Source: a virus
Direction: 5' to 3' (one strand)
IMG/VR virus record: IMGVR_UViG_3300033145_003233
Location: 62,001 to 126,000 of that record
Length of the DNA: 64,000 bases
Positions 566-35,164 of the stretch are shown piece after piece. The translations under genes and the position numbers were made by a program. The notes beneath the pieces are model-generated. The model saw nothing but the letters and a program-made list of their open reading frames with translations. It searched no databases and was not told where the DNA came from. Within the stretch, counting starts at the first letter, position 1. The number at the start of each line of letters is the position of its first letter.

Positions 566-1180
566 TTATTTACATTTTATCGCGTTAGCAAATAAATCTT
601 TTATTTTAACTTCTTCCATTTTATACCATCCGGTTGGCATATCATTAAAATATTGATTTATATATTGTTTATAAGAATTGAACCAGTTCTTTCTGTTTTT
701 TTCTGATGTTTTGTTTATTTTTTTTCGGCTAATTCCAGTCAAATATGTTGCATAGTCTTCTGCTTCTTTGTTTACATTATCAGAATCATTCTTATTGCAG
801 GAAGCAGGCCCCCAATGAAGCAACTTTCTATCTGAAGAAATGGCCCAACAGTCTACATTATATTTAGACAATTCTAAAAATTTCTTACTAAATTTTATAG
901 CTTGAGGATCATAACCTTGATTTTCTAAATTCTCGTCAGAACGACTTTCTTTAACTATTACATCATTTATAGCTATTAAGTCGCCAGAATTGAATTGAGT
1001 TTTAACTAAAACATCTATATCTCTAATTCTAAAATCTGAATTATCAATATTCTCAGCATAAGATCCCCAGAGATAAAGATCTTTAACTCCCTTTACTTTT
1101 CTAAAATCTTCTAACGCCCCTGATATGTGGGGCTTTATATCTTTTATCTTAGGCATACACTTTTCGTACCAAGAACTCAA
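566..1180 (-). CDS. minimal nucleotidyltransferase-fold protein
   Basis: 204 aa. The motif GS at residues 39-40 followed by D54 and D56 (DIDVLV) matches the GSx(n)DxD signature of the pol-beta nucleotidyltransferase superfamily, as in MNT antitoxins and aminoglycoside-type NTases. The start is a TTG at 1180, chosen because a strong GAGGAG Shine-Dalgarno lies about 9 bases upstream; the first ATG (codon 9) has none. It stands alone on the minus strand between plus-strand genes. No HEPN toxin partner is adjacent, so an antitoxin role is not supported. The transferred group is unknown. Confidence 0.6.
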   Translation of the reverse strand: MSSWYEKCMPKIKDIKPHISGALEDFRKVKGVKDLYLWGSYAENIDNSDFRIRDIDVLVKTQFNSGDLIAINDVIVKESRSDENLENQGYDPQAIKFSKKFLELSKYNVDCWAISSDRKLLHWGPASCNKNDSDNVNKEAEDYATYLTGISRKKINKTSEKNRKNWFNSYKQYINQYFNDMPTGWYKMEEVKIKDLFANAIKCK

Positions 1181-1321
1181 TATTAATCTCCTCGTAACTT
1201 TATTAATGTTTTTTATTTCAAGTATATTTATTATATTCCTTTTTTTGTCTTTCCGCTTAATGAAAAAAAGAGGTTTTTCCGATATATAAAAATATATAAA
1301 AGGGGTTTTAAAGTATAAAGA

Positions 1322-2179
1322 ATGAAAAAAATATTTTTAATTCTGTTATTGTTATCGTTAATAACTGCTGCTTGGGCAGGAACAAGAAGAACTAGGGAAC
1401 AAGAGTACCTGAAAGGGTCGTTCACTATAGAAGAAGGTATGTCTTTTTCCAGAAATTTTCGGGCTTGTGATGTAGATGGAGATCCCTTAATAATAGAAAT
1501 AGATGACTTGCCTCCAGGAGCAACTTTATCAGATGCCATACCTTTAATCTGGGACCCTGATCCCAATCATTGTAATAATGAATCAGATCCAAACTATTGC
1601 ATGACCTGTTTCTCTGGTTCTGTAAATACTAGTTGGTATATTTCAACTTTTGACTGGACCCCCGATTATACTCAAGCAGGATTCTATCAACTACATCTTC
1701 ATGTAATGGACGATCAGGGAGGAGATGATTGGGTGATGTATGAGATAACTGTTACCAATGTAGATCAAGGGCCTGGAACAAGAAGACCAAGAGAAGACGA
1801 ATATTTAGCAGCCACGATAAATGTATCAGAAGGAGAACTTGTTTCTGCTACTATCAGAACTTGTGATGTAGATGGAGACCCGATACAAATAGAAGTAGAA
1901 GATTTGCCTGCTGGGGCAATCTTGTCAGATGCCATTGAAATAGTCCCATCTCCTGATCCAAATGTGTGTGACGAAGATCCCAACAATATGGAAGCATGCC
2001 TTGCATGTTTAAATAGTCCTACTACAAGCTGGTATTCTGCCACTATAACGTGGACTCCAGATTATTCACAAGCAGGGCAATATAAGCTTTACGTTCACTC
2101 AATGTCTGGCCTTGGTGGAGAAGATTGGGTGGTGATAATAATAAATGTAGCCGATAAAAATAGAGAACCTGTATTATAA
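1322..2179 (+). CDS. secreted protein with two cadherin/Ig-like (He_PIG-type) repeats
   Basis: 285 aa. A classical signal peptide ends near AWA (residue 19), followed directly by a basic patch (TRRTRE). Two tandem repeats of about 130 residues follow, each with CDVDGDP, a DLPxGA motif, paired cysteines and WTPDYxQAGxY near the end; these fit the calcium-binding putative-Ig/cadherin-like fold of bacterial surface proteins. The protein ends at NREPVL, the usual linker between such repeats, as if cut at a domain boundary. It is followed 17 bases later by a one-repeat paralogue. A surface or periplasmic binding role is likely; the ligand is unknown. Confidence 0.65.
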   Translation: MKKIFLILLLLSLITAAWAGTRRTREQEYLKGSFTIEEGMSFSRNFRACDVDGDPLIIEIDDLPPGATLSDAIPLIWDPDPNHCNNESDPNYCMTCFSGSVNTSWYISTFDWTPDYTQAGFYQLHLHVMDDQGGDDWVMYEITVTNVDQGPGTRRPREDEYLAATINVSEGELVSATIRTCDVDGDPIQIEVEDLPAGAILSDAIEIVPSPDPNVCDEDPNNMEACLACLNSPTTSWYSATITWTPDYSQAGQYKLYVHSMSGLGGEDWVVIIINVADKNREPVL

Positions 2180-2196
2180 TTTATAAAGGAGAAAAA

Positions 2197-2643
2197 ATGA
2201 AAAAGAAAATGATATTACTTTTAATGATTGCTGCATGCTTAACTGTCAGCACTGTTCTATTTGGTGTGTCTAGACACACTAGGGTAGATGCGCCAGTTCG
2301 TTTTAGCATAACCATAACAGAAGGAGAAGCTCTCACAAAGACTATTTCATGTTATGACCCTGATGGAGACCCAGTGACCATTACGGTAGAAGACCTTCCA
2401 GCAGGAGCTAGTGTCGCCCCTCAGGTAACACAACCTCCTGGGTATAGTGATCCTGATTTGCCAGCTGTGCCTCCAGATGCCCCTAATGCCGTTTGGTACA
2501 CAAGAGAACTCACATGGACTCCTGATGCAGAACAGTCTGGGGTAGCCACAATTTATATTCATGCAACAGATGACTCAGGCGATGATGACTGGGTAAAATA
2601 CGAGATTACTGTTACTAACGTAAATCGTCCTCCTGTGTTATAA
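2197..2643 (+). CDS. secreted single cadherin/Ig-like repeat protein
   Basis: 148 aa paralogue of the preceding gene with one repeat instead of two. It has a signal peptide (hydrophobic core residues 5-21, cleavage near FGV), a basic SRHTR patch, then YDPDGDP, DLPAGA and WTPDAEQSGVA motifs. It ends at NRPPVL, the typical inter-repeat linker. The Shine-Dalgarno AAGGAG lies upstream of ATG 2197. It is probably co-transcribed with the two-repeat gene; the large terminator at 2669-2723 closes the unit. Confidence 0.65.
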   Translation: MKKKMILLLMIAACLTVSTVLFGVSRHTRVDAPVRFSITITEGEALTKTISCYDPDGDPVTITVEDLPAGASVAPQVTQPPGYSDPDLPAVPPDAPNAVWYTRELTWTPDAEQSGVATIYIHATDDSGDDDWVKYEITVTNVNRPPVL

Positions 2644-2668
2644 CATATAGTTATTGTTATATAAAAAT

Positions 2669-2723
2669 AGAGGGTCTTATAGAATTACGATGGAGGAGGA
2701 GTAATTCTTAGACCCTCTTTTTT
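2669..2723 (+). terminator. rho-independent terminator
   Basis: A long stem, AGAGGGTCTTATAGAATTAC at 2669-2688 pairing with GTAATTCTTAGACCCTCT at 2701-2718 (near perfect), is followed by a T run. It ends the secreted-protein unit. Confidence 0.9.
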
Positions 2724-2736
2724 CCGATAATAAAAT

Positions 2737-3480
2737 ATGAAAAAAGAAATTTATAAATTTATAGACAAAGAAAAATATATTCCTGTTATAGCCAAGGAAA
2801 TAGTAGATACGTTTCAGACCGAAGCTGATCAAGAGAATATCGATTACAGCTTTACAATAAATAGAAAAACAGGAGAAGTATGTAATCAAGAGGCCAACAC
2901 ATATTTCCTTTTTGACACCTGTGGTCAAACTGTACTTCATAATTTTAAAAAAGCACTGTTTAATGATGATTTATCTCATATCGAAGAGGGAAGCGAAGAA
3001 GAGCAAAAATTAATGGAAGATGTTAAAAATTTTCTTTTAAAAGTTTGTAAAAATATAACAAAAGAATATTATGGAAATTTACAAGAAACAGTTAGAAGGG
3101 TAATTCTAGGAAATAAAGTTGATGCTGAAATAGCCCCTCTAGATATTATAGAAGTAATATCAATTGATTTAGCTGATTATTCTTCAATCCCAGAATCTTC
3201 AAAATATTTATTAAAGATAGGTAAGAAACCAGATTCAGATATAAACACAGATGAAATTATTAAATTTGTTCAGAATAGACAAGAAAAAACAGGCATGGAT
3301 ATTGATACAATTCTTTCTATTGAACAAAAAGCAGGAAACCCCATGTTTAAGAATGTCATAAGCATTGAAAAAGGTAGAAAATTTCTAAATGAAATCTCTA
3401 TTTATTTTTTTGTTGATTATTCTCTTAAAAATGAAAAAATAGAGGAAAAAGAGCTTGACAATAAGAAAGAAACAGTGTAG
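2737..3480 (+). CDS. hypothetical protein, 247 aa
   Basis: I do not recognise a family. The protein is acidic and Lys-rich, mostly predicted helical, with no signal peptide and no obvious catalytic motif. No Shine-Dalgarno is visible; instead CCGATAATA ends 4 bases before the ATG, an arrangement also seen before the genes at 45167 and 41687 (minus) that suggests a leaderless transcript starting right after the preceding terminator. The stop TAG lies 12 bases before the tRNA-Gly gene. Confidence 0.6.
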   Translation: MKKEIYKFIDKEKYIPVIAKEIVDTFQTEADQENIDYSFTINRKTGEVCNQEANTYFLFDTCGQTVLHNFKKALFNDDLSHIEEGSEEEQKLMEDVKNFLLKVCKNITKEYYGNLQETVRRVILGNKVDAEIAPLDIIEVISIDLADYSSIPESSKYLLKIGKKPDSDINTDEIIKFVQNRQEKTGMDIDTILSIEQKAGNPMFKNVISIEKGRKFLNEISIYFFVDYSLKNEKIEEKELDNKKETV

Positions 3481-18168: not shown

Positions 18169-18531
18169 ATGATCGGGGAGAAAAAAAAGTATCTGATACA
18201 ACTTTTTTTAAAAAGATGTACATTACAAGAAATTAATAGAAAACATATTGATTTCTCATTTGAACTTTTTAAAAATACGTATAATGTCTCGGATGAAGTT
18301 CTGTCCAAATTAAGAAAAAAGTATAATATAGACGAGTATATAGATAGGCTGCTGCCATTAATAGACGAACAATTTACAACTGAAGAATTGCAAGCAATAG
18401 TAAAGTTTTATTCTTCAGATATGGGGAAAAAAATATTAGATCCTATTTTTTTAGAGAAAGTAGGAAAAATAGGTACTAACATGTTTGCTCAAATAGAGCA
18501 AGAATTTTCTATCAACAATAACTTAAAATGA
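18169..18531 (+). CDS. DUF2059-like protein
   Basis: 120 aa. The segment FTTEELQAIVKFYSSDMGKK near residue 78 is the hallmark of DUF2059 proteins, whose role is unknown. Unlike most members it has no signal peptide. It overlaps the next glycosyltransferase gene by 4 bases. Confidence 0.65.
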   Translation: MIGEKKKYLIQLFLKRCTLQEINRKHIDFSFELFKNTYNVSDEVLSKLRKKYNIDEYIDRLLPLIDEQFTTEELQAIVKFYSSDMGKKILDPIFLEKVGKIGTNMFAQIEQEFSINNNLK

Positions 18532-19625
18532 AAAAACCAAAACCAAAAAAAATATATGTAATGCCTAGAGGGTCTCTTGCTTACTCTTTTTATGAGAAGA
18601 TACCATATATCCATAAACATTTATTGAAACATGCCGACACCAAAGAAATAAAATATTTATTTGTAACTCCTTTTTCAAATGGGGGACTATCTGTTTGTGA
18701 AAGATCTCAAGAACCAATATATAGAATAGTAACATCATGCGAGAAGTCAGATAAAGCTTTAAAAAAGTTCTTTGATCAAGGATTTATAATTAAAAATATG
18801 TTTTTAAATAATTATGTAAGATACTCTCCGTTGATACAAGAATATGCAAAAAAACACGGAACTAAAGTTAGTGTTTGTGAACATAGTTGGTTCCCAGCAT
18901 CTCAATGGCATTTAGATCCTGTCGGTTTTTCTCATGAATCGTTATTGGCTAAATCTAGATTAGATAATGTTAATATAGATATAGAGAAAGAGAAAGAGAA
19001 AATAAAAGAATATAAAAAAGATTTAATTCAACACAAATATAGTATAAATAAACCTTATATTGTATTAATTCTTCAAAAGACTCAAGATATCACTATCGAT
19101 ATAGGGTATCCAGATTTTCCAGGCTGGCAAAGAATAATAGATTGGGCCAACTCATTGAGAATTGATAAAGAAATATTAATTATTAAATTAAGGCATACTC
19201 TATTTAAGCTTAAAAGACTTGGAGAATCATACGTTTTTCCTAAAGACTCTATTGTTATCCAATCAAAAAGAGTAAATAACAATATTTTAAAAAATGCTAA
19301 TTTAGTAATAGGTGTTAATTCTACAATGTTATATGAGGCAAGCCTTATTTACAATAAACCTGTTTTAGCTCTAGGCAGTAGCTGGTTTGATGCTCATCAT
19401 CCTGAAGTGGTAAAAAAAATAAAAATAGATGATAAAATAGAGAGACCAGTTGTTAGTGAAGAAGATCTTAATTATCGTGCTAAAATGTTTTATATAATGT
19501 CAAAAATGCAAATTCCTAAGAAATTTTATTCGATAAAACAACCCCTTGAATTTGCTAACGATTTCTTAAAAAAACATGCACAAGCTTCTCAAATTAAAAA
19601 AATAGAAGATTGGGTAGATGTGTAG
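18528..19625 (+). CDS. capsule-type glycosyltransferase (KpsC/KpsS-like)
   Basis: 365 aa. The C-terminal half carries the Capsule_synth-like pattern: YIVLILQKTQDI, a region predicted to hold IIKLRH, and the nucleotide-sugar pocket VIGVNSTMLYEASLIYNKPVLALG, ending with a SWFDAHHPE segment. Such enzymes make polysaccharide linkers or chains. It is the first gene of a run of glycan genes extending to 25.3 kb with 0-4 base spacing. The donor and acceptor are unknown. Confidence 0.7.
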   Translation: MKKPKPKKIYVMPRGSLAYSFYEKIPYIHKHLLKHADTKEIKYLFVTPFSNGGLSVCERSQEPIYRIVTSCEKSDKALKKFFDQGFIIKNMFLNNYVRYSPLIQEYAKKHGTKVSVCEHSWFPASQWHLDPVGFSHESLLAKSRLDNVNIDIEKEKEKIKEYKKDLIQHKYSINKPYIVLILQKTQDITIDIGYPDFPGWQRIIDWANSLRIDKEILIIKLRHTLFKLKRLGESYVFPKDSIVIQSKRVNNNILKNANLVIGVNSTMLYEASLIYNKPVLALGSSWFDAHHPEVVKKIKIDDKIERPVVSEEDLNYRAKMFYIMSKMQIPKKFYSIKQPLEFANDFLKKHAQASQIKKIEDWVDV

Positions 19626-22584: not shown

Positions 22585-23193
22585 ATGGCAAAAGAAAAAT
22601 ATAAATATGAAAAAATATACCAAGGTAAGGGCATCTATAGAAGAAATAGAAAAATAGACAAAACAGGAAAAATAAGAAAAACATATGGTAGAGAAAATTG
22701 CGGCAAAAAACATCTTCAATATATAATCAATGAAATTCAACCAACTTCTATTATAGATGTGGGTTGTGGAAGTAATAAATTCTGTGCTATGTTAAAAAAA
22801 ACTAATATAAAATCAATTGGCATTGATTGCGCCTGCCCTCTTGCAGATGTTATCTCGGATGCTGATAATCTTCCTTTTCACGATAATCAATTTGATTTAT
22901 TAACGGCATTCGATGTACTAGAGCATATACCAGAAGAAGAAATAGATATAGTATTTAAGGAATTTAAAAGAGTAGCTCATCGCTTCATGTATCAAATAGC
23001 CTTAAGAAAATCTCCCTCCTCCATAGATCATGAGACATTACACCCGACAGTTAAACCTTATGACTGGTGGATAGATAAAATTACAAAAGATGATCCAAAA
23101 ATAATTAAGATAATGTATAAACGAAAAAGGTACATAGTCCCGCCAGAAGATGCAAAGAAACTTATTATTTATGGAATATTTGATAAGACATAA
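22585..23193 (+). CDS. class I SAM methyltransferase, paralogue 1
   Basis: 202 aa. SAM-binding motif I DVGCGSNKFC, an acidic motif II GIDCACPLADV, and motif IV FDLLTAFDVLEHIPEEEID are clear. It is the first of three paralogues (also 24118 and 24771) that share the N-terminal MAKEKYKYEKIYQGKG. The methyl acceptor is unknown; gene context suggests a sugar or glycan intermediate. Confidence 0.8.
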   Translation: MAKEKYKYEKIYQGKGIYRRNRKIDKTGKIRKTYGRENCGKKHLQYIINEIQPTSIIDVGCGSNKFCAMLKKTNIKSIGIDCACPLADVISDADNLPFHDNQFDLLTAFDVLEHIPEEEIDIVFKEFKRVAHRFMYQIALRKSPSSIDHETLHPTVKPYDWWIDKITKDDPKIIKIMYKRKRYIVPPEDAKKLIIYGIFDKT

Positions 23194-24117: not shown

Positions 24118-24759
24118 ATGGCAAAAGAAAAATACAAATACGAAAAAATATATCAGGGCAAAGGTGAATTCAAAAGAATTTATCAGCTAGATGGATCGGG
24201 AAAGAAACGAGAGATGTATGGACATAATAACCACGGTAAACAATATTTTAAGTTTATACTAAGAAAAGTTAAACCCACTTCGGTTGTAGATATAGGTTGT
24301 GGATATAATGAATTTTGTGAGATGCTGAAAGAAAAAGGAATAGAATCAGTAGGTGTTGACTTCGCCTGTCCCGGAGCCGACATAATGGCTAGTGCTGAAA
24401 ACCTTCCTTTTAGAGATGGGCAGTTTGATTTATTAACAGCATTCGATGTATTAGAGCATATACCAGAAGAAGAAATAGATACATCATTAAAAGAATTTGA
24501 GAGAATAGCTCATCGCTTTATGTATAAAATATGTTTAAGAAAAGATTTTAAAAAAATAGATGGAGAAACATTGCACCCCACAGTTAGATTCCCTGAATGG
24601 TGGATAGATAAAATTACAAAAAATGGTGGACATATAGGCCAAATAATATATTCTAATAAAAAAGGAATAATGCCAAAATGCAGGGCTAAAATATTAACCG
24701 TTTATGGATTTTTTCATGTAAAACCACCTCCTCCAAAAAGCAAATCATATTATGATTAA
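24118..24759 (+). CDS. class I SAM methyltransferase, paralogue 2
   Basis: 213 aa. Motif I DIGCGYNEFC, motif II GVDFACPGADIM, and FDLLTAFDVLEHIPEEEID identical to paralogue 1. The C-terminus differs and ends in a short basic tail (KPPPPKSKSYYD). The DNA of the first codons is nearly the same in all three copies, indicating fairly recent duplication. Confidence 0.8.
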   Translation: MAKEKYKYEKIYQGKGEFKRIYQLDGSGKKREMYGHNNHGKQYFKFILRKVKPTSVVDIGCGYNEFCEMLKEKGIESVGVDFACPGADIMASAENLPFRDGQFDLLTAFDVLEHIPEEEIDTSLKEFERIAHRFMYKICLRKDFKKIDGETLHPTVRFPEWWIDKITKNGGHIGQIIYSNKKGIMPKCRAKILTVYGFFHVKPPPPKSKSYYD

Positions 24760-24770
24760 AGAAGAATAAG

Positions 24771-25322
24771 ATGGCAAAAGAAAAATATAAATATGAAAAA
24801 AGAATCAAAGAAATAAAATATTCTGACAAGGATAAAAAAAAGAACCATGGACTAAAAACAATGCCATTCATAAAAAATATTATCAAACCTTCTTCAGTTA
24901 TAGATGTTGGATGTGGGTGGAACTCGTTTTGCCATTTATTAAATGAAAAAGGGATAGAATCAGTTGGTGTTGATTTCGCTTGTCCAGGTGCAGATATTAT
25001 AGCAGATGCCGAATATCTTCCTTTTAAAGATGGGCAATTTGATTTATTAACAACATTTGATGTATTAGAGCATATACCAGAAGAAGAAATAAATATGGTG
25101 TTTCAAGAATTTAAAAGAGTAGCAAATAAATTTTTCTACCAAATATGTCTAGGAAGAGGAAAGAGACATATAACTCTTAAATCTCCCACATGGTGGCTAT
25201 TAAAAATAATAGAAAACCAAGGAGATATTGGACAAATAACATATTATGATGGGGCAAATAACATAGTCCCCAAAAATAAAGCAAGATGGATTACTGTTTA
25301 TGGTTTCTTTAATAAAAATTAA
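24771..25322 (+). CDS. class I SAM methyltransferase, paralogue 3
   Basis: 183 aa, shorter than its two relatives because a segment after the MAKEKYKYEK start is missing. SAM motif DVGCGWNSFC, GVDFACPGADII and FDLLTTFDVLEHIPEEEI are intact, so it is probably active. Last gene of the glycan cluster; a consensus promoter for the next operon follows. Confidence 0.8.
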   Translation: MAKEKYKYEKRIKEIKYSDKDKKKNHGLKTMPFIKNIIKPSSVIDVGCGWNSFCHLLNEKGIESVGVDFACPGADIIADAEYLPFKDGQFDLLTTFDVLEHIPEEEINMVFQEFKRVANKFFYQICLGRGKRHITLKSPTWWLLKIIENQGDIGQITYYDGANNIVPKNKARWITVYGFFNKN

Positions 25323-25345: not shown

Positions 25346-25374
25346 TTGACAAAACCTACAAAAAGTAGTATAAT
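25346..25374 (+). promoter_or_regulatory. consensus sigma-70 promoter of the radical-SAM/MKIR operon
   Basis: TTGACA at 25346-25351 and TATAAT at 25369-25374 with a 17-base spacer. The 60-base leader contains GTAGGAATGTAACCGCTTA (25404-25422), almost the same as a motif in the leader at 51818-51837 on the minus strand. Confidence 0.85.
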
Positions 25375-25436: not shown

Positions 25437-26483
25437 ATGAAAATAATCGATAAAAAAGATAGAAAAGCTCTTTATTCACGGAATTATAATTTTGTTCTAA
25501 ATAAGAAAAATGGGCTTTTTATAAGATAGGGAAGGGCTTTAGGAGATGATCCTCAGTTCTCTCCATTTGGACCTGAAATTTTGGATTTAGAGATTTCCTC
25601 TGGTGGAGATTGTCTCGGAAATTGCCCCTTCTGTTACAAATGTAATGGTGGAGATCAACCTACTCACAATATGACTTTTATAGAGTTTAAGACAATCTTT
25701 GATAAGATGCCTAAAACTCTTACTCAGATTGCTTTTGGGATTATGAATATTAAAACTAATCCCGACTTCTTTAAAATGATGAAGTATGCTAAAAAGAATG
25801 GAGTTATTCCTAATTATACCTGTCATGGTTTGGATGTTACTCCTGAGATGGCAGAAAGAACTTCCAAACTTTGCGGAGCAGTAGCAGTTAGTCTTTTAAA
25901 TAAAAAGAAAACGTATAAGGCTATTAAGCTTTTTACTAGTTTCGGTATGAAGCAAGTTAATATTCATTATATGCTTAGTGAAGAGACTTATGATAAAGCA
26001 TTTGAGATTGTAGATGATTTGGCATCTGATTCTGACTTAAAGGATTTTAATGCTATTGTCTTTTTACAGTATAAATCAAAAGGCAGAAATCCAGATGATT
26101 TTACTTCTGTTCTGGACGTAGAAAAATATAAGAAGCTAACAGAATATTGCAAAGCAAGAAATATTCGCTATGGCTTTGACTCTTGCTCTGCTTCTATGTT
26201 TATAGATAGTTTGGAAGGACAACCTGATAAAAAGGTCACAGAGCTATTTGTAGAGCCTTGTGAGAGTGGATTGTTTAGCTCTTATATAAATTGTCATGGA
26301 AAATTCTTTGTTTGTAGTTTTGCTGAGGACGAAGATGAATGGATAAAAGGATTAGATGTTTTACATTGTGATGATTTTATGAAGGATATTTGGGACCATC
26401 CAAGACTTGTTGCTTGGAGAGAAAGATTGATAAAAAACAAAAGAGAATGTCCGATTTATGATTTATCTTTGGAGAAAGCATAA
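25437..26483 (+). CDS. radical-SAM protein interrupted by one in-frame amber codon
   Basis: The frame runs from ATG 25437 (AGAGGA Shine-Dalgarno about 7 bases before it) for 30 codons to TAG at 25527-25529 and then stays open to 26483, 348 codons in all. The coding sense is continuous across the stop (NYNFVLNKKNGLFIR-*-GRALGDDPQFSPFGPEILDLEIS), and a Trp is what I would expect at this place in relatives. The 4Fe-4S cluster motif CxxxCxxC is C59/C63/C66, followed by YK and a GG motif; a C-terminal cysteine group (PCESG...INCHG...VC) resembles a SPASM-like region. A TTG at 25581 could start a shortened protein but lacks a ribosome site. It heads the operon of MKIR-tag genes and is a candidate modifier of them. 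Confidence 0.8.
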
Positions 26484-26764
26484 TGCAAGAATGGATTAAA
26501 TTTGTTTGTCAGAATTGCGAGCAGGGAGTGAAAACACCTGTAGAAAATGCGGGCAAAAAAGGAAGATGTCATCAATGCAAGACAGAATGCATTATCCCAG
26601 AAAGAGAAACAGAAGAAGAGAGAGAAGAGGCATTTATTTCTGATCTCTTTAAAGATCTTGACGAAATTGATAAACAAGCAGAAATAGAATCAAACTCTTT
26701 AGCTAAAATTTTAAAAAATCAAGAAGCAATGAGTGGATCAATGGATTTGGACGATCCAATATAA
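26483..26764 (+). CDS. zinc-ribbon protein, 93 aa
   Basis: Two CxxC pairs (FVCQNCEQG and GRCHQCKTECIIPE) in the first 37 residues form a zinc ribbon like those in bacterial GKKGRCPxC proteins. The rest is acidic and helical. The ATG overlaps the radical-SAM stop (TAATG). Between the radical-SAM gene and the tag array, it may be an adaptor of that system. Confidence 0.65.
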   Translation: MQEWIKFVCQNCEQGVKTPVENAGKKGRCHQCKTECIIPERETEEEREEAFISDLFKDLDEIDKQAEIESNSLAKILKNQEAMSGSMDLDDPI

Positions 26765-26789
26765 GTTTAAAAAATTATTGGATATATAA

Positions 26790-27182
26790 ATGAAAATTAG
26801 AACAGGATTTGTTAGTAATAGTAGTGTCAGTTCTTTCACTATCTATGGATGGACAGAAAAAGATCTGTCCGAACATCTTGCAAGTTTATGTTCCTCTTTT
26901 AAAAATGTGGATGTCAGTATAGATGAGAGCTTTATAGAATCTCTTGATGAAATTTGGGAAGGTAATAAGTGGGATCTTAATTCTACATATGGCCCTGATG
27001 GAAGAATGGTTTTTGGACTTGGCACTCATGATAGTGAGGTAGATCATAGTGGATATGATTATACAGGCGAAAACTTTAAATTTCCAGAACCATCATATAA
27101 AGATCAAAAGAAATTTGACGAATTGGCTAAAAAACTAAAATTACCTCAACCCAAAATGCATCAAGCAACATGGTATGATTAA
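26790..27182 (+). CDS. MKIR-tag protein 1
   Basis: 130 aa. It begins MKIRTGFVSNSSVSSF, the tag shared by eleven genes up to 31786. The rest is acidic (YGPDGRMVFGLGTHDSEVDH, SGYDYTGENF) with no known family. Where the tag ends, similarity to the other copies ends. Confidence 0.75.
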   Translation: MKIRTGFVSNSSVSSFTIYGWTEKDLSEHLASLCSSFKNVDVSIDESFIESLDEIWEGNKWDLNSTYGPDGRMVFGLGTHDSEVDHSGYDYTGENFKFPEPSYKDQKKFDELAKKLKLPQPKMHQATWYD

Positions 27183-27194
27183 TAGGAACTAGAT

Positions 27195-27791
27195 ATGAAA
27201 ATTAGAACAGGCTTTGTTAGTAATAGTTCAAGTGCTTCTTTTGCCATACCGTCTATTCTCCTTACAGACGAGCAAAAAGAAATGCTGCTTAGCATAGATG
27301 ATATGAAAGAAGAAAAAGCAGGATTGCAAGAAAAATTTGGAGATGATCATAATTGGGAAACCTCAAAAAATGATTATCCTGTTAATGAAGAATATCATAG
27401 AATTTATCAGAAAATGCTCGATGATAATAGATGGGACGATAGTTGGTCAATAGGAGAACATAAAGAAGATCAACTAGTCTCAGGAAGCACAATGATGGAA
27501 AATGGTAGTTTGAGAGTATTGATGGAACATATCGGAATAGATATAGAAATAGTTGAAGCCCATGAGCAACTCTCTACTCGCTTGGCAACTCATCCTGAAG
27601 CAGTAAAATATTTTATAGAACTGAATAAAAAATATAGAAAGAAATTCGAAGACCTGGACAAAAAGCAACAAGAGATACAATCAGAATTTCTTGGAGGCGC
27701 TCCTCTTGAAAGAGGCCCTTATGAAATGAGTGACAAAGAATTAGAAGAAAATGAACTACCATATTATAGAAGGGGAAAAGATGAAAATTAG
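27195..27791 (+). CDS. MKIR-tag protein 2
   Basis: 198 aa, the longest of the eleven. Tag MKIRTGFVSNSSSASF, followed by a highly charged helical body with a likely coiled coil (about residues 140-165, KYRKKFEDLDKKQQEIQ). It starts 12 bases after the previous stop, and its end overlaps the next gene by 11 bases. No function known. Confidence 0.75.
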   Translation: MKIRTGFVSNSSSASFAIPSILLTDEQKEMLLSIDDMKEEKAGLQEKFGDDHNWETSKNDYPVNEEYHRIYQKMLDDNRWDDSWSIGEHKEDQLVSGSTMMENGSLRVLMEHIGIDIEIVEAHEQLSTRLATHPEAVKYFIELNKKYRKKFEDLDKKQQEIQSEFLGGAPLERGPYEMSDKELEENELPYYRRGKDEN

Positions 27792-28224
27792 AATAGGATT
27801 TGTAAGCAACAGTAGCACTAGCAGTTTTGTATTAGCTGGTTTTAATTTAGGTCAAGAGAAAGTTTTGTATGAACAGATCTATACCAGCATTACCGGCAAA
27901 ACCGAAGAATACATTACTACCAAGATGAAAGAATCAAAAGGTTATAAAGATGACTCAGACGATCCAGAATATAGAGAAGAATATGTTAGAGAATACCTAT
28001 GGAATGAAATCCAACCTGAGATTGCTATTCAGTCTGGTAGCGAATCCGGAGTTGGAGACAAAACAGTTGTTGGTAGGATGCTAGTATGGTCGGGTTCAGA
28101 TGGAGACTACTGGGACAATATAGAAGTAGATATGGACAAACTATCAAAAGAATTAGAACCCTTAAGACAAATACTTGGGACAGATTCGGAATTGAAGTTG
28201 TTTATCGGTTCTGCATGTTGTTAA
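27781..28224 (+). CDS. MKIR-tag protein 3
   Basis: 147 aa from ATG 27781, chosen because the tag MKIRIGFVSNSSTSSF begins there and GAAGGGG lies just upstream; the longer frame adds ten untagged residues. Body: an acidic helix region, then GSESGVGDKTVVGRMLVWSG. It ends with a double Cys (SACC). Confidence 0.75.
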   Translation: MKIRIGFVSNSSTSSFVLAGFNLGQEKVLYEQIYTSITGKTEEYITTKMKESKGYKDDSDDPEYREEYVREYLWNEIQPEIAIQSGSESGVGDKTVVGRMLVWSGSDGDYWDNIEVDMDKLSKELEPLRQILGTDSELKLFIGSACC

Positions 28225-28234
28225 GGAATGTAAT

Positions 28235-28792
28235 ATGAAAATTAGAACAGGATTTGTGAGCAATAGTTCAACACAGAGCTTCGTGTGTCCTCTTTGCGAT
28301 GATCTCTATCTTCTTATGGACGGAGATCCAGAGACTAACACCTATGCTTTATGTATTTGTAAGAACCATCATGCTTTCTGTCAAGTTCATATTCCCTTCT
28401 CTGTAGAAGAAATTACAAAAGTAATGAAAGAAGAATTAAAAAAGAATCCGCCGGATGCCGTAATTCCTTCACATATTAAAAAAAAGATTGATAAACTTTC
28501 TCTTAGAGAATTAAAAGAATTATTTGATAGGAAGAATGAGGATAAAAAAACAGCGATGGAAATGAATGATTTTATTCATTACTTCTTCCGCAATCTTCCT
28601 ACAAAATTATGTCCCATCTGCACTTTTAAACGCATTCTGCCATGTGATGTTAAAGATTATTTCTTTATAACTGCTGAAATGGACACGGTTTTAAACAATA
28701 TACAAAAAACATTTGGAACTTATAAAAAGTTTCAAAAATTTCTTGATACAAATAGAAATCAAAATTTAGACTGGGACGAAAATGAAGATTAG
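28235..28792 (+). CDS. MKIR-tag protein 4, zinc-binding type
   Basis: 185 aa. The tag MKIRTGFVSNSSTQSF runs straight into a cysteine motif (VCPLCDDL), with CICKNHHAFC and CPICTFKRILPC later, so this copy probably binds zinc. The presence of a zinc module in one copy only shows that the tag is attached to unrelated bodies. Overlaps the next gene by 11 bases. Confidence 0.75.
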   Translation: MKIRTGFVSNSSTQSFVCPLCDDLYLLMDGDPETNTYALCICKNHHAFCQVHIPFSVEEITKVMKEELKKNPPDAVIPSHIKKKIDKLSLRELKELFDRKNEDKKTAMEMNDFIHYFFRNLPTKLCPICTFKRILPCDVKDYFFITAEMDTVLNNIQKTFGTYKKFQKFLDTNRNQNLDWDENED

Positions 28793-29186
28793 AAAAGGTT
28801 TTGTAAGTAATAGTAGCACTTCAAGCTTTATTGTGGGAATCCCTAAAGACTTATCAGAAGAAGAAAAAAAGATCTTCCTAATAAATAAAATGGGAGGAGA
28901 AAAAAGTATATTCTCAGAAATGTTTGAGCCAATAGCAAACCTCATTCTAGGAGGAGATATTGGAGAAGAACGTATTCTTGAATACTGGGGAGAGGATTCT
29001 CTTGAAGGATTGAAAGAGAATTGTTCCGATATGTATGATATAATAATGAAATGTAGAGAAAAAGGTCTGGAAATTCATATGGGAAGTGCTGATGACCAAA
29101 GCTCAGATAGGTCAGAAATATCATTTTGTGGAATGACTATCTATGTAGATGAAGATGATTTCTTTTTTGATAAAGAAGGAAGATAA
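28782..29186 (+). CDS. MKIR-tag protein 5
   Basis: 134 aa. Tag MKIRKGFVSNSSTSSF; acidic body (IGEERILEYWGEDSLEGL, MGSADDQSSDRSEISF). It shares one base with the next gene (stop TAATG). Confidence 0.75.
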   Translation: MKIRKGFVSNSSTSSFIVGIPKDLSEEEKKIFLINKMGGEKSIFSEMFEPIANLILGGDIGEERILEYWGEDSLEGLKENCSDMYDIIMKCREKGLEIHMGSADDQSSDRSEISFCGMTIYVDEDDFFFDKEGR

Positions 29187-29716
29187 TGAAAATCAGAAAT
29201 GGATTTATTTCTAATAGTTCAGCTAGTTCTTTTATCGTTCAAACGAAAAAAGATAAATTTGATATGATTATGGAGAAAGAAATAGGAACTCTTGATCAAG
29301 AACAGGTGAAACTCTTAAAAGAAAACGGTTTTGCTCCGACTACAACAAGCGATCCATTTTCTTTTTTAGAACTTAATAGAAGATCTTGGCCCGATAGTAA
29401 AGGTCAAGAAGAGGATATAGACAATGATGTTTATATGGCCCTTATGGTAGCTTGTAATCAGGATGAAATAATATATCTTTTAGTCAAAAATAATATTCCA
29501 TTTAAAGCAGCTTGTCATTATGGACAAGAGTTTATATGCTATGAAAAAGATTCAGATTATATGTTTAAAGCCAATAATTTTGGCATGGAGGCTTGTATGT
29601 ACGGGGCCGAACATGTCGAAGAAGACAGGTTCAATTCTCCCAAATTCGAGAGAATAGATGTTAAAGGATGGATGGAAAAAGAAGAACCAGTGTTGGAGAA
29701 TGAAGATGAAGATTAG
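29186..29716 (+). CDS. MKIR-tag protein 6
   Basis: 176 aa. Tag MKIRNGFISNSSASSF; then a helical body with KFDMIMEKEIGTLDQEQV and a later cysteine group (CHYGQEFICYEKD, MEACMYGAEH). It ends in an acidic tail that overlaps the next start by 11 bases. Confidence 0.75.
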   Translation: MKIRNGFISNSSASSFIVQTKKDKFDMIMEKEIGTLDQEQVKLLKENGFAPTTTSDPFSFLELNRRSWPDSKGQEEDIDNDVYMALMVACNQDEIIYLLVKNNIPFKAACHYGQEFICYEKDSDYMFKANNFGMEACMYGAEHVEEDRFNSPKFERIDVKGWMEKEEPVLENEDED

Positions 29717-30260
29717 AAATGGATTTGTAAGCAATAGCTCAAGTAGCTCTTTTGTTATAGCCTTTCCGAGCAAACCGAAATCAATAGAAGATGTTAAAAA
29801 AATGATATTCGGACAACAAGAGTGGCATTATTCGGGATATATAGGAAGAGATGAGAGTGACGTTCCAACTCTACCTATTGCAGAGAATGTTTTTTCCAAA
29901 ATAGAAAAGAAAGCAACTAAAAAAGAAATCTTAGAATCAATTAAACATGGATGGTTTGGCCCATATTATGATTCTCTTGAACATCTTCCTGGATATAAAA
30001 GCAGAGATATAGGTGATCAAAAAGAACTTCAAGCATTAAAACATGGTTCTCCTGAGTGGCATAAGCTTTATGATAAAATTGCTAAAGTCGAAGATGAAGA
30101 AAATGAGAAAAGAGCCAACGATATCGTTGAGGCATTTATGTTAATGAATCACAAAAGCTATTTTGTGGTTATGGATTTTTCTGATAATGATGGAGAAGCA
30201 ATAGAAGAACATACAGAGATCTTCGGAAGACTTCCACATATTAGAACAAGTTATCACTAA
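29706..30260 (+). CDS. MKIR-tag protein 7
   Basis: 184 aa from ATG 29706, where the tag MKIRNGFVSNSSSSSF begins; the longer frame from 29658 adds residues encoded inside the previous gene. Body: Lys/Glu-rich helices around HGWFGPYYDSLEHLPGYKSR. Confidence 0.75.
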   Translation: MKIRNGFVSNSSSSSFVIAFPSKPKSIEDVKKMIFGQQEWHYSGYIGRDESDVPTLPIAENVFSKIEKKATKKEILESIKHGWFGPYYDSLEHLPGYKSRDIGDQKELQALKHGSPEWHKLYDKIAKVEDEENEKRANDIVEAFMLMNHKSYFVVMDFSDNDGEAIEEHTEIFGRLPHIRTSYH

Positions 30261-30268
30261 GGAATATT

Positions 30269-30610
30269 ATGAAAATCAGAACAGGATTTATAAGTAATAG
30301 TAGTAGCTCTAGCTTTCTATGTAGGGGAAATTTTACGCCAGAAGAAGCAAAAGATATTTTACAAGAGACATTGGATTTTTACAATAAAATGTGCGGCACT
30401 GACAAGACTTTTGGAAGTGTTTTTGAAGAACCTAGATTAGGAACCAAAGCTGATTTTAAATTTTATTCTGAAGATTGGGAAATTGGAGTTATTGAAGAAG
30501 AAGTTGTTGGACATCTTATTATAAATGGTTGTGATGATAACTCTATTCCTTACGAATTATTTTATTTAATAGAGCGCAAATTTGACGCTCAAAGGTTTCA
30601 TTTAGGATAA
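30269..30610 (+). CDS. MKIR-tag protein 8
   Basis: 113 aa. Tag MKIRTGFISNSSSSSF followed by LCRGNFTPEEAKDILQETL, a helical segment, and an acidic beta-rich end. It has its own AAGGA ribosome site. Confidence 0.75.
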   Translation: MKIRTGFISNSSSSSFLCRGNFTPEEAKDILQETLDFYNKMCGTDKTFGSVFEEPRLGTKADFKFYSEDWEIGVIEEEVVGHLIINGCDDNSIPYELFYLIERKFDAQRFHLG

Positions 30611-30624
30611 GAGGGAGACAAATT

Positions 30625-31014
30625 ATGAAAATAAGAACAGGATTTATAAGCAATAGTAGTAGTTCTTCTTTTGTCGTGCTGGGAGAATGGGTGGCTAGGT
30701 GGAGAGCAAAAGAAGAATTTGCAAATGGAAATAAAAAAATTTACGCTATTGGGGATTCCCTTGGAGATGGAGACGACATTATCCATGTAACCCCCAAACT
30801 AGCCAAATACTTATTCTCCGAATCTCCTGATTTTGATTTTGGAGATATGCAGTTTCTTATAGCTATCGTAGCGGCCAGTGGAGAAGGAACATTTAATACA
30901 TCAGATATTGACCCTACTAAAAATATAGAATTAACCGTAGTCTCTCTGGAAAAGGATATGCATTCCTGCCAGACAAAAGCAGATTTATTAGATATTTATG
31001 GAATAGAAAAATGA
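30625..31014 (+). CDS. MKIR-tag protein 9
   Basis: 129 aa. Tag MKIRTGFISNSSSSSF, then VVLGEWVARWRAKEEF and an acidic body (IGDSLGDGDDIIHVTPKLAKY). The stop overlaps the next start by 4 bases (ATGA). Confidence 0.75.
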   Translation: MKIRTGFISNSSSSSFVVLGEWVARWRAKEEFANGNKKIYAIGDSLGDGDDIIHVTPKLAKYLFSESPDFDFGDMQFLIAIVAASGEGTFNTSDIDPTKNIELTVVSLEKDMHSCQTKADLLDIYGIEK

Positions 31015-31373
31015 AAATCAAAAGAGGTTTTGTAAGTAACAGTTCGACAACATCGTTTATGGCATACGGAATATGCGCAGATAGTAATGAAATTATGGAA
31101 GCCCTTAAAGAAACAGGAACAATTACCGATGGAGAAGATTTTGAATGTATCTCAGACTGGACATGGGATAATCGTAAGGTTCTTGAAGATATGGAAATCG
31201 ATTGTTGGCTTCCTCCGTATGACGATACTTGTTATATGGGAGTTAGTTATAACTGTCTTAAAGATGATGAAACTGGTAAGCAATTCAAGGACAGAGTTAC
31301 AGCAGAAATGAAAAAATTATTAGGGGATAAATTTGATTTCTCCATTATCGAAGATGGATGGAGAGACGGATAA
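31011..31373 (+). CDS. MKIR-tag protein 10
   Basis: 120 aa. The most diverged tag, MKIKRGFVSNSSTTSF; acidic, Trp-rich body (ISDWTWDNRKVLEDMEIDCW) with four cysteines spread through it. Confidence 0.75.
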   Translation: MKIKRGFVSNSSTTSFMAYGICADSNEIMEALKETGTITDGEDFECISDWTWDNRKVLEDMEIDCWLPPYDDTCYMGVSYNCLKDDETGKQFKDRVTAEMKKLLGDKFDFSIIEDGWRDG

Positions 31374-31387
31374 GAAAGAGGTAAGCA

Positions 31388-31786
31388 ATGAAAATTAGAA
31401 TAGGTTTTGTAAGCAATAGCTCAAGCACATCTTATGTGCTAGCTGTAACAAGAAATTTCAAGCTCACGGACGAAAAGAGAAAAGAACTATTTGAAGAGCA
31501 TGTCGATTGGAGCGGCGAAGAAGATATAACAATAGACCAAATAGATGGATACTTTCAGGACATCATTGAACGACTATGCTCTAGTGGAGAAGTATATGAA
31601 GATGATGATGAGCCTCCTCTATTTTACCCCTTTATTACCGTATTTGAAGATGAGATACTCTTCACAACAATAGAGGCAGGTCCAGGGCAAGGAGTCCATA
31701 TCAATCTTCTATCTGACAAGGAAATAGAAAAAACTCTTAAGAAAATGAAAAAAATAATCTCTGAGAATGATGAAACATCATCATAG
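31388..31786 (+). CDS. MKIR-tag protein 11 (last of the array)
   Basis: 132 aa. Tag MKIRIGFVSNSSSTSY, the only copy with Tyr instead of the final Phe. The body is acidic with EDDDEPPLFYPFITVFEDEI. After its stop a new promoter starts the NadD gene, so the array ends here. Confidence 0.75.
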   Translation: MKIRIGFVSNSSSTSYVLAVTRNFKLTDEKRKELFEEHVDWSGEEDITIDQIDGYFQDIIERLCSSGEVYEDDDEPPLFYPFITVFEDEILFTTIEAGPGQGVHINLLSDKEIEKTLKKMKKIISENDETSS

Positions 31787-31803: not shown

Positions 31804-31832
31804 TTGAAAAGTGATTGTATCTATAATATAAT
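31804..31832 (+). promoter_or_regulatory. promoter of the nadD unit (AAAGTGA type)
   Basis: TTGAAA at 31804-31809, AAGTGA at 31809-31814, and TATAAT at 31827-31832 (spacer 17; 12 bases after AAGTGA). Confidence 0.7.
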
Positions 31833-31849
31833 CTTTGAAAGGATTTCCT

Positions 31850-32512
31850 ATGACAAAACAAAGAATCTTATTATTTGGCGGCACATTTAACCCTATCCAT
31901 GTGGGACATCTCCTAATGGCCCAGGAAGCCGTAGAACGTCTCAATTTCGATAAAGTCATTTTTATACCCTCTGCTATCCCCCCCTTCAAGAAAAGCCCTG
32001 TATCGTTCTCTCAGAGGCTCAAAATGGTCACTATGGCTATCGATGGTATAGACTATTTCGAAGTTTCAGATATAGAGGCAAAAAGGGGTGGTCCAAGCTA
32101 TACAATCGATACTGTCAGATATTTCAAAGAAAAATGCCAGAACTGGGCAAAAATCTATTGGATGATAGGTTCTGACTGTGTTAAAGAGTTAACAAAATGG
32201 CATAAAATAAGAGAACTTCTTGATGAATGCATATTTGTGATAGCCGAAAGAAATCAATATAGAAATTATGAGGGGGGAGATTTTATGTCGTTTGTTTATG
32301 AAACCCTGAAAGAAATAGCAGATATAAATCAACCTATCATGACAAATCATTTTACCCCTCTTATTAATAGGGTATTAGAAATTTCCTCAAGTGATATCCG
32401 AGATAGATTAAGATGTGATGAATCAATCAGGTTTTTAGTTCCTGAAGCAATAGAACAATATATAAAAGATAATGAACTCTATTCAAATAACAGACAACAT
32501 ATCGCTGTATAA
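31850..32512 (+). CDS. nadD: nicotinate-nucleotide adenylyltransferase
   Basis: 220 aa. GGTFNPIHVGH at residues 10-20 and SSSDIRDRLR near the C-terminus are the nucleotide-binding signatures of NadD; the length is normal. It makes nicotinate adenine dinucleotide from NaMN and ATP. Start at ATG 31850, with AAAGGA 8 bases upstream. The gene overlaps the methyltransferase by 41 bases. Together with the nicotinamidase at 11.6 kb it suggests phage support of host NAD synthesis. Confidence 0.9.
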   Translation: MTKQRILLFGGTFNPIHVGHLLMAQEAVERLNFDKVIFIPSAIPPFKKSPVSFSQRLKMVTMAIDGIDYFEVSDIEAKRGGPSYTIDTVRYFKEKCQNWAKIYWMIGSDCVKELTKWHKIRELLDECIFVIAERNQYRNYEGGDFMSFVYETLKEIADINQPIMTNHFTPLINRVLEISSSDIRDRLRCDESIRFLVPEAIEQYIKDNELYSNNRQHIAV

Positions 32513-33296
32513 CGGAGAAGCGGAGAAAGTTATTCCCATTTTAGAAGATGATAGCATTGACTTGACTATCACTTCTCCACCCTATAATGTAAAATTAGGG
32601 GATAACAAGTTTAATAAGAATCCCTACGACTTATACAACGACAATAAAGATCATAAAAAATACATAAAGTGGTTAAAAGATATCTTCTCTAGACTCTACC
32701 CCAAATTAAAATCAGGAGGAAGAGTCTGTATTAATATTGGAGATGGGAAAAATGGAGCAATTCCAACCCATGTGGATATTATCCACTTTATGACAAGAGA
32801 ATTAAAATACATTCCTATGGCTAATATTATATGGAACAAAAGCCAGATAGGGAATAGATTTTCATGGGGGAGCTATATGTCTCCTAGTTGTCCTTCTTTT
32901 CCCAAACCATTTGAATATATAATGGTTTTTGCTAAAGAAACTACAAAATTACAGACAAAAGGAGAGACAGATCTAGTTCCTAAACAATTTATAGAATGGG
33001 CATTTTCTATATGGAATTTTGCCCCTGAAACAAAGATGAAAAAAATAGGCCATCCAGCAATGTATCCTGTTATACTTCCCTATAGATTAATAAAAATGTT
33101 GAGTTGGACAAATGCTACAATTCTTGATATTTTTAATGGAGCAGGGACTACAGGTGTTGCTTGTGAGCAGTTAGGTAGAAAGTATATTGGAATAGAAATG
33201 TCTAAAAAATATTGTGATATAACAGAGAAAAGAATAAAAGATACAAGACCATTAAGCGAAATAAATATGTTTCCGGGAGAAGAAAAATGGATATAG
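32472..33296 (+). CDS. orphan DNA methyltransferase (N6-A or N4-C)
   Basis: 274 aa. Catalytic TSPPYN (residues 34-39) comes before the SAM-binding motif DIFNGAGTTGVACEQLGRKYIGIE, i.e. the beta-type order. The SPPY form is found in both N4-cytosine and some N6-adenine enzymes, so the target base is open. No restriction enzyme is nearby. Its last codons overlap the start of a broken DUF3326 copy. Confidence 0.85.
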   Translation: MNSIQITDNISLYNGEAEKVIPILEDDSIDLTITSPPYNVKLGDNKFNKNPYDLYNDNKDHKKYIKWLKDIFSRLYPKLKSGGRVCINIGDGKNGAIPTHVDIIHFMTRELKYIPMANIIWNKSQIGNRFSWGSYMSPSCPSFPKPFEYIMVFAKETTKLQTKGETDLVPKQFIEWAFSIWNFAPETKMKKIGHPAMYPVILPYRLIKMLSWTNATILDIFNGAGTTGVACEQLGRKYIGIEMSKKYCDITEKRIKDTRPLSEINMFPGEEKWI

Positions 33297-33514: not shown

Positions 33515-35164
33515 ATGTTAGAACAAAATGTAGTGAACAGTTCACAGGAGCCTTCATTTAAGTATGGTAAGGTTTCAATTCAACCATCACCAATGTTGAT
33601 AGATTCCATTCGTTATTCAGGTCATAATTATAAAACAGCTATAAAAGACATTGTTGATAATAGTCTTGACGCTGGGGCAAGTGAAATTTTTATTTTGATA
33701 GGGAAAGAAGATAAAAAATCAAGAATAGTCATTGCAGATAATGGAAGCGGGATGTCCCCCGCCACTTTGCAGAAAGCTTTTTCTCTGGGCTGCTCTATTA
33801 AAAATGGAGGTACAGATCAAAAGTTGGGTAGATTTGGAATGGGTTTAAAAACTGCTTCAGGATGCTTAGGCAATGAGTTAGTTGTTTTAACAAAAAGTGA
33901 AGGAAAAAGCCTTATTAGAGGAGAGCATTTTTTCAAGAAGATAGAGAAAGAAGGATGGTTCGCTAATATCTCAGTCGCTAATGATGATGATAATGAATAT
34001 TTCAATAATATTTTTAAAAGTAGCAAAAAGGGGACAATAATTATAATTCAAGATCTTCGTATTTCAGATAATATCTATCAACTTAAGGAACCTATGTTAA
34101 AAGAAATTGGAAGAACATATAGATATTTTCTTGCTCCAAAATTAAAAAAAGATCAATCTCCGGCACCGATAGGAAAGATAAAAATGTATTTTGGATCTTC
34201 TGTTTCAAATTGTAAACCCGTATATGGTCTAGATCCTTTAGAGCGTCAGCATAAGGATACAAAGATTGTGTTAGAAGAGGATGTAAAATTAGATAATGGT
34301 CGTAGTTTTAAAGTAAGCATATCTATATTGAACAGAACGTCTCTAGATTGTGACCTTAATTTTAAACCTACTTTAATAAATCAGGGAGTTTATATAGTTA
34401 GAGAAAATAGGGAGATACAAGCGCATACTGCTAAACATAGACTTTTTGGAGGAAAAGTGAAAGATCCTCATATGAATTACATCAGAATGGAAATAAGGTA
34501 TTCTAATATGGACGATGTATTTGAATTAAATAACACTAAAACGAGCATTGAAACAATTGATCAACCTATCGCTGATAAAATCGAGACACTAACAAGTTCT
34601 TATATTAGCCAGTGGGCTAAGGATTGTAAAAAAGCTTCCAGTGTTGACTCTACAAAGGGGCTAGATAAAATTCTTTTAAAAGCTCAAGAAGAGGTTGAGG
34701 GCAAAAAGAATATTTTAGAATTGCCATCGGCTGCGAAAGGTAAAAAAAGACCAGGCACAACGGATAAAAAAGGAACAGTAAAAGGTACAGGAGAAGGATC
34801 TCATCACTCTAATAAAGAACCTAAAGAACCTAAAGATTATAGCAATAAACCTAAAGATTATGAATTTAAAGAGAGAGATATGTCAGAAGCTGGCCCTATC
34901 TTTGAATATGGAGGTCTTGATAATGGGGTAATAGAGATTACATGGAATGTTGCTCATCCTTATTTTTGTAAATTTATTGCTGGTAATATTGATAAAGATT
35001 CTAATGATAGTTTACTTTTATCATTACAATACATGGCATTCGCTATGACATCTTCATTTATGATTTTTTGTCAGAGGGCTAATATGGAATATGAAGATGC
35101 TCAGGTTCTTACCGAAAATATGATGGGAACAATTTCTAATAATCTAAGAGCCTTGTCAAGATAA
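33515..35164 (+). CDS. GHKL (HSP90/MutL/MORC-like) ATPase
   Basis: 549 aa. The Bergerat ATP site is complete: N-box DIVDNSLDAGAS (N49), DNGSGM (75-80) and GRFGMGLKTA (105 on). The order and spacing fit MORC-like and other nucleic-acid-linked GHKL ATPases rather than histidine kinases (no phospho-acceptor domain). A Lys/Pro-rich linker (about residues 400-450) precedes a separate C-terminal domain. Own promoter, ribosome site AAGGAA, and a terminator after the stop, so it is a one-gene unit. The cellular target is unknown. Confidence 0.8.
   Translation: MLEQNVVNSSQEPSFKYGKVSIQPSPMLIDSIRYSGHNYKTAIKDIVDNSLDAGASEIFILIGKEDKKSRIVIADNGSGMSPATLQKAFSLGCSIKNGGTDQKLGRFGMGLKTASGCLGNELVVLTKSEGKSLIRGEHFFKKIEKEGWFANISVANDDDNEYFNNIFKSSKKGTIIIIQDLRISDNIYQLKEPMLKEIGRTYRYFLAPKLKKDQSPAPIGKIKMYFGSSVSNCKPVYGLDPLERQHKDTKIVLEEDVKLDNGRSFKVSISILNRTSLDCDLNFKPTLINQGVYIVRENREIQAHTAKHRLFGGKVKDPHMNYIRMEIRYSNMDDVFELNNTKTSIETIDQPIADKIETLTSSYISQWAKDCKKASSVDSTKGLDKILLKAQEEVEGKKNILELPSAAKGKKRPGTTDKKGTVKGTGEGSHHSNKEPKEPKDYSNKPKDYEFKERDMSEAGPIFEYGGLDNGVIEITWNVAHPYFCKFIAGNIDKDSNDSLLLSLQYMAFAMTSSFMIFCQRANMEYEDAQVLTENMMGTISNNLRALSR

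Follow-up and report, generated by a model that had tools for sequence, protein, structure and literature searches.

Radical S-adenosylmethionine (radical-SAM) maturases act on peptides with conserved leaders and read family-specific leaders or motifs, as in the enzymes SkfB, CteB, SuiB, and TigE of ribosomally synthesized and post-translationally modified peptides (RiPPs; sactipeptides, ranthipeptides). The anaerobic sulfatase-maturating enzyme (anSME) acts on the Cys or Ser of CxPxR/SxPxR in sulfatases, which it converts to formylglycine. Another kind of shared N-terminus, the T4-type capsid-targeting leader, is cut by the gp21 prohead protease after Glu, and the proteins bearing it are found in the virion. 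Here, we examined positions 62001-126000 of the virus record IMGVR_UViG_3300033145_003233 (G000:62001-126000; record of 547,943 bp in total), a stretch of 64,000 nucleotides referred to as the window, in which a radical-SAM gene and eleven tandem genes with a common 16-residue N-terminal tag lie together. We consider it probable that the two form a two-part module, in which a radical-SAM/SPASM enzyme (PHROG 7293 and diverged relatives) recognizes the tag and modifies it in place.

This locus shares with the RiPP maturases the SPASM/twitch fold of its enzyme and an operon with small proteins whose common N-terminus the enzyme would read; it differs in that the putative substrates are folded proteins with unrelated bodies and no shared core peptide, and that a transporter, a peptidase, or a third conserved gene is missing, which places it outside the RiPP loci. 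It resembles anSME as a SPASM enzyme predicted to act on a short motif inside a folded protein, and its model matches the fold of peptide-bound anSME, whereas the tag described here is N-terminal, Ser-rich, and devoid of CxPxR/SxPxR, and is carried by many protein families, none of them a sulfatase. The T4 internal proteins likewise are tandem phage proteins with a shared N-terminal tag and variable bodies; here, however, the partner is a radical-SAM enzyme rather than a protease, and the tag also occurs on plasmids. Finally, PHROG 7293 includes the enzyme (E = 4.7e-74 for the window enzyme) and PHROG 7397 the core tag protein (6.2e-116 for phT4A gp221), but both families are listed as "unknown function" and are unlinked there, and PHROG 7397 represents one of many tagged bodies.

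A shared N-terminal tag on unrelated proteins

The window contains 11 tightly packed genes at 26790-31786 on the plus strand, all of which start with MKI[RK]xGF[VI]SNSS..S[FY], with S[FY] at tag positions 15-16 in every case, and then diverge. As the initial annotation had proposed, the proteins of this array are mutually unrelated beyond the tag, and one of them (gene 28235) has a zinc-type body, whose family, with 37 members, is found repeatedly with the tag in IMG/VR. No other tag site was present in the ~544 kb read, which comprised the window and ~480 kb of the rest of the record. Tag protein 7, encoded by gene 29706, belongs to what we call the core family, which is marked by the C-terminal pattern YSDNDG...LEHG..F..L.H...S.H and is also present in cultured T4-like phages.

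A degenerate tag pattern matched more than 119 IMG/VR stretches, whereas an order-scrambled pattern of similar degeneracy matched none, which excludes chance as the origin of these matches; the pattern read backward also gave no match in nine records holding 35 forward or reverse tag matches. Among 290 non-redundant tag genes adjoining the enzyme, R4, G6, S9, N10, S11, and S12 are essentially invariant (this set was gathered with a motif-favoring pattern, and a looser one recovers G6 variants), F7, V8, S15, and F16 are conserved at 96-98%, and almost no information is left past position 18. Conservation of the tag DNA, which had also been noted initially, holds loosely: all six Ser codons, AGY and TCN, are found at every invariant Ser of these 290 genes, with codon classes agreeing in 66% of comparisons within a locus versus 55% between loci. 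Because the codons vary where the serine does not, the peptide is what selection acts on.

The tag is thus conserved at the peptide level on bodies that are unrelated. The 441 distinct tagged proteins (median length, 129.5 amino acids [aa]; typically 80-270 aa) have bodies that fall into 114 BLAST clusters, with 85 singletons, and profile-profile comparison of the 20 largest clusters gave three probable links only. A tblastn search with the bare 20-residue tag returned no match, probably owing to the low-complexity filter. We found no description of the tag in the papers and libraries searched (bioRxiv lay outside the search, and few subscription papers were covered), suggesting that the tag-enzyme system is undescribed, in the sense of being absent from that literature and those libraries.

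Association of the tag with the enzyme in viruses, cultured phages, and plasmids

The co-occurrence of tag proteins with this radical-SAM family, proposed initially as a check, was borne out in both directions. Starting from 80 virus records picked by enzyme alone, we found tag genes within 10 kb of the enzyme at 73 of the 80 loci, amounting to 319 genes, all on the strand of the enzyme; when G6 changes were allowed, the number of loci rose to 76, and when whole records were searched, tags were present in 78 of the 80, the two exceptions being fragments of 14.7 and 37.8 kb. The nearest tag gene lies at a median distance of 310 bp from the enzyme. Conversely, PHROG 7293 was detected in 34 of 50 tag-selected records and, when only those of 140 kb or longer were counted, in 22 of 25, compared to none of 35 length-weighted random virus records. 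Two single-protein control scans yielded no relatives. At 81 loci, the window included, the enzyme family recurs 81 times and tag proteins 76 times, followed by an IMP-dehydrogenase-like family (13 times); no third gene family, peptidase and transporter families included, recurs there as the enzyme and the tag do.

The same pairing was seen in cultured phages. Among 50,697 INPHARED records, 174 encode the enzyme and 175 encode the core tag protein, with nearly equal counts by host genus, the carriers being members of Pseudotevenvirus and Slopekvirus (RB43, RB16, Lw1, phT4A, KP15, and Miro). The T4-like isolates RB43, RB16, Lw1, phT4A, and KP15 encode one tagged protein each, ~20 kb from the enzyme, a distance at which operon hitch-hiking does not explain the pairing. 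In phT4A, this protein is gp221, a core tag protein of the same family as gene 29706, whose N-terminus reads MKIRSGFVSNSSSSSFIVRFPK. Outside this clade, five tag genes lie close to the enzyme of Vibrio phage D479. A natural co-loss, which is a single case, was found in Slopekvirus KLB1, where most of the enzyme was removed by a 5.9-kb deletion and the tagged N-terminus by a separate 1.7-kb deletion. For two other bodies, no tagless homologues were found in cultured phages. In the two T4-like phages whose neighborhoods were read (L222 and L223, 4844-7060 in each), the genes after that of the tag protein are the same, one for a small protein and then one for a ~738-aa protein with a von Willebrand factor A domain.

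The bacterial survey covered plasmids, of which seven from Agrobacterium, Rhizobium, and Rhodobacter carry a close enzyme; the plasmids with a tag protein are these same seven, and the two genes are adjacent. In the four plasmid loci examined, the gene order is a nucleoside triphosphatase (NTPase) of the SMEK_N-NACHT kind, the tag protein, and the enzyme, and the NTPase gives PADLOC Avs2 profile matches. This adjacency recalls the Avs/STAND-NTPase loci, but the tag-enzyme pair is outside any described Avs system in the library searched. Judged by gene content, the plasmid NTPase, tag protein, and enzyme may constitute a candidate defense locus, which PADLOC does not name as a unit; this defense-like context suggests, without proving, a role in phage-host conflict. 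No NTPase of this kind was among the recurrent neighbors of the phage loci, and neither the window enzyme nor that of L135 had a PADLOC match. The plasmid loci are compact (L232, L233, L234, and L237, from Agrobacterium, Rhodobacter, and Rhizobium) and often also encode a ~120-aa protein. A scan of bacterial genomes returned one radical-SAM match, which had no tag and was judged spurious.

The plasmid tag reads MK[IL]K[LM]DFVSNSSSTSF (K4/D6), and a third enzyme subfamily (L115, L125) adjoins tags of the form MKIKxGF[VI]TNSSS (K4/T9). Since these altered tags lie beside diverged enzymes, tag positions 4, 6, and 9 change together with the enzyme. Consistent with this, phage tags lacking G6 cluster by locus (0 of 20,000 permutations reached the observed value), although shared ancestry of the tags inside one genome could add to this clustering. 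Altogether, the tag is tightly associated with the enzyme, on the same strand, across phages, T4-like isolates, and plasmids, and this co-occurrence supports the initial proposal that the tag is a recognition sequence linked to the enzyme; it strongly suggests that the tag is the recognition site of the enzyme itself.

Predicted modification of the tag and competing explanations

By its sequence, the enzyme family is assigned to the radical-SAM superfamily with a C-terminal SPASM/twitch auxiliary-cluster domain. The three Cys residues of the SAM-cluster motif CxxxCxxC, or a close variant, are invariant in 27 aligned sequences, as are four C-terminal Cys residues; Pfam PF04055 (Radical_SAM) scores above gathering for L064, L115, and L232 and below it for the window fragment alone, and SPASM PF13186 gives 23.5 and 27.3 bits for L064 and L232 versus a cut-off of 21.5. 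No NCBIfam maturase model reaches its cut-off, the best, mycofactocin, GeoRSP, and W_rSAM, falling far below. A structural model of the L064 enzyme (predicted local distance difference test [pLDDT] score of 91) retrieved SkfB, TigE, and CteB as the top Foldseek matches, with peptide-bound SuiB and anSME within the first eight; viperins were also among the matches.

Based on these data, the enzyme would read the N-terminal tag MKIRxGFVSNSSSSSF and modify it in place, probably within the invariant S9-N10-S11-S12 core. As the set of small, mutually unrelated proteins bearing the tag varies, one enzyme would serve many proteins. Modification in place is favored by a model of tag protein 7 (pLDDT of 83), in which residues 1-4 are disordered, residues 7-9 form a short strand, and residues 13-20 form a strand of the fold, because removal of the tag would cut into the body; the latter half of the tag is built into this modeled body as a strand of the fold and is not a detachable leader. 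Searches of PDB and BFVD with the model of tag protein 7 gave no similar protein, so the fold offers no function for the core body. We infer that the tag is modified by the enzyme and that the modified residue lies within the S9-N10-S11-S12 core. By analogy with anSME, the reaction might be Ser oxidation (Ser to formylglycine), a guess that we regard as rather doubtful; epimerization or a crosslink within the tag are other options. A Phe7-based cyclophane is disfavored because whole loci carry Leu7 (L210).

Several observations count against this model. The window's own enzyme gene is broken by a TAG codon, although its eleven tags persist, and no recognition domain such as a PqqD-like RiPP recognition element was identified. 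Three large tag-bearing records have no PHROG 7293 match, two of them no radical-SAM match of any kind. The co-occurrence in isolates comes mostly from one phage clade and amounts to few independent events, so that common descent may partly explain the isolate pairing.

Among the alternatives, the tag could be a sorting or packaging signal directing proteins to the virion, a phage compartment, or the membrane, with the radical-SAM gene a frequent operon partner that acts elsewhere. Tandem genes with one N-terminus and variable bodies, here in 114 clusters, do resemble the T4 internal-protein loci; yet the sole recurrent partner is the enzyme, neither a protease nor a structural gene, and the pairing holds at ~20 kb separation and on plasmids, which have no virion. 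No Glu is found at a conserved tag position, so the tag is unlike a T4-type leader cut by gp21, and in the model of tag protein 7 residues from its latter half form a core strand. We therefore regard a sorting or packaging signal as unlikely. The further proposal of the initial annotation, that the variable bodies are anti-defense or virion-packaged cargo, gained no direct support from the analysis. A KP15/KP27 paper contained no virion proteomics.

It is also quite unlikely that the tagged proteins serve as partners or regulators, docking on the enzyme via the tag, while the true substrate is another molecule, e.g., a nucleotide as for viperin. Viperins appear among the Foldseek matches, and the plasmid enzyme gets weak viperin-profile matches, but the best fold matches are peptide maturases, and regulators would hardly come with as many as 11 different bodies in one genome. 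The viperin model NF038283 gives 33.9 bits versus a cut-off of 180, and the family possesses a SPASM domain, which sets it apart from viperin/pVip. Very improbable is a DNA- or translation-level element (the end of a recombination cassette or an initiation enhancer), for although the bodies are modular, the tag begins at the start codon, and similar tag DNA was noted in the initial annotation, the mixed serine codons described above speak against it, and it leaves the radical-SAM partner and the subfamily-linked tag variants unexplained.

With modification of the tag by the enzyme, a large set of phage genes annotated as "hypothetical", comprising more than 400 distinct bodies in 114 sequence clusters, would gain a function that can be tested. 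If true, the use of a single address by one enzyme to reach unrelated folded proteins would constitute a novel mode of modification, and the address might double as a ready-made tag for bioconjugation. Candidate purposes of the tag are activating, anchoring, or protecting the tagged proteins in infection or in bacterial defense loci. More tentatively, the enzyme may be a mobile "tag writer" that puts one chemical group on whatever protein carries a universal N-terminal address. Large phages would employ it for sets of up to 11 proteins of infection, and bacteria would employ it in a defense locus, and both writer and tag may have a place in a phage-host arms race; we see this broader picture as possible rather than probable. 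Because the pair occurs in T4-like phages growing on laboratory E. coli (Lw1, RB43, RB16, and phT4A), the question is directly answerable.

The interrupted enzyme gene and its surroundings

The features of the locus are collected in the table below. The strong promoter anticipated in the initial annotation was confirmed as a full consensus match, and a second sigma-70 match (11/12), at 31804, marks the next unit. The zinc-ribbon gene that the same annotation placed in the operon exists as an open reading frame (ORF); no relative of it was found among the neighbors of the enzyme at 80 other loci, and it was rejected as a third component.

Features of the tag-enzyme locus in the window
Feature	Position	Strand	Remarks
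Sigma-70-type promoter, TTGACA-17-TATAAT	25346..25374	+	12/12 consensus match, upstream of radical-SAM gene
Radical-SAM gene, 5' part (MKIIDKK...LFIR)	25437..25529	+	Translation; ends in in-frame TAG 25527-25529
Radical-SAM/SPASM gene, remainder	25530..26483	+	CxxxCxxC at GDCLGNCPFC; C-terminal Cys motifs; alignment
Small zinc-ribbon-like protein, 93 aa	26483..26764	+	ORF
Tag protein 1, 130 aa	26790..27182	+	
Tag protein 2, 198 aa	27195..27791	+	Body family of 44 members
Tag protein 3, 147 aa	27781..28224	+	
Tag protein 4, 185 aa, CxxC pairs	28235..28792	+	Body family of 37 members
Tag protein 5, 134 aa	28782..29186	+	Body family of 25
Tag protein 6, 176 aa	29186..29716	+	Body family of 11
Tag protein 7, 184 aa	29706..30260	+	Core family, 41 members; structure model
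Tag protein 8, 113 aa	30269..30610	+	
Tag protein 9, 129 aa	30625..31014	+	Singleton body
Tag protein 10, 120 aa	31011..31373	+	Body family of 46
Tag protein 11, 132 aa	31388..31786	+	Singleton body

That the operon opens with a radical-SAM gene was correct as to the CxxxCxxC motif and the SPASM-like tail, but the frame from 25437 is interrupted by the TAG. In the alignment, this codon replaces the near-invariant Trp of the RWGKT motif of relatives, and the PHROG 7293 match runs through it. Because TAG is the terminator of 13 of the 58 ORFs in the window, and a scan of ~544 kb of the phage record revealed no tRNA with a CTA anticodon, the TAG is not a recoded codon, and recoding or a suppressor tRNA was ruled out; the codon arose by a recent nonsense mutation or reflects an error in the sequence, with the genetic code unchanged.

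Interruptions of the enzyme gene were also encountered elsewhere. In L078 (~1150-3270), the radical-SAM gene is in two pieces ~1 kb apart, with an insert encoding a GIY-YIG-type endonuclease, and the radical-SAM matches of G023 and G040 are likewise split. An interruption of like kind was reported for the radical-SAM gene of Klebsiella phage Kpn35c1 (PMC9960720). The gene thus seems to have been hit repeatedly by mobile introns or homing genes.

The genes directly 3' of the array, at 31835-33296 and 33515-35164, encode a nicotinate-nucleotide adenylyltransferase-like protein, an N6/N4 DNA methylase, and a protein with an ATPase domain of the Hsp90/MORC type. Elsewhere in the same phage genome, 27 clustered tRNA genes, including tRNA-Trp(CCA), lie on the minus strand at L364 5686-17550 (G000:171686-183550). 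A second set of genes with a common N-terminus, MAKEKYKYEK, followed by variable sequence, consists of three adjacent SAM-methyltransferase-like genes (22585-23193, 24118-24759, and 24771-25322) located within a region of capsule-synthesis-like genes (Capsule_synth at 18528-19625).

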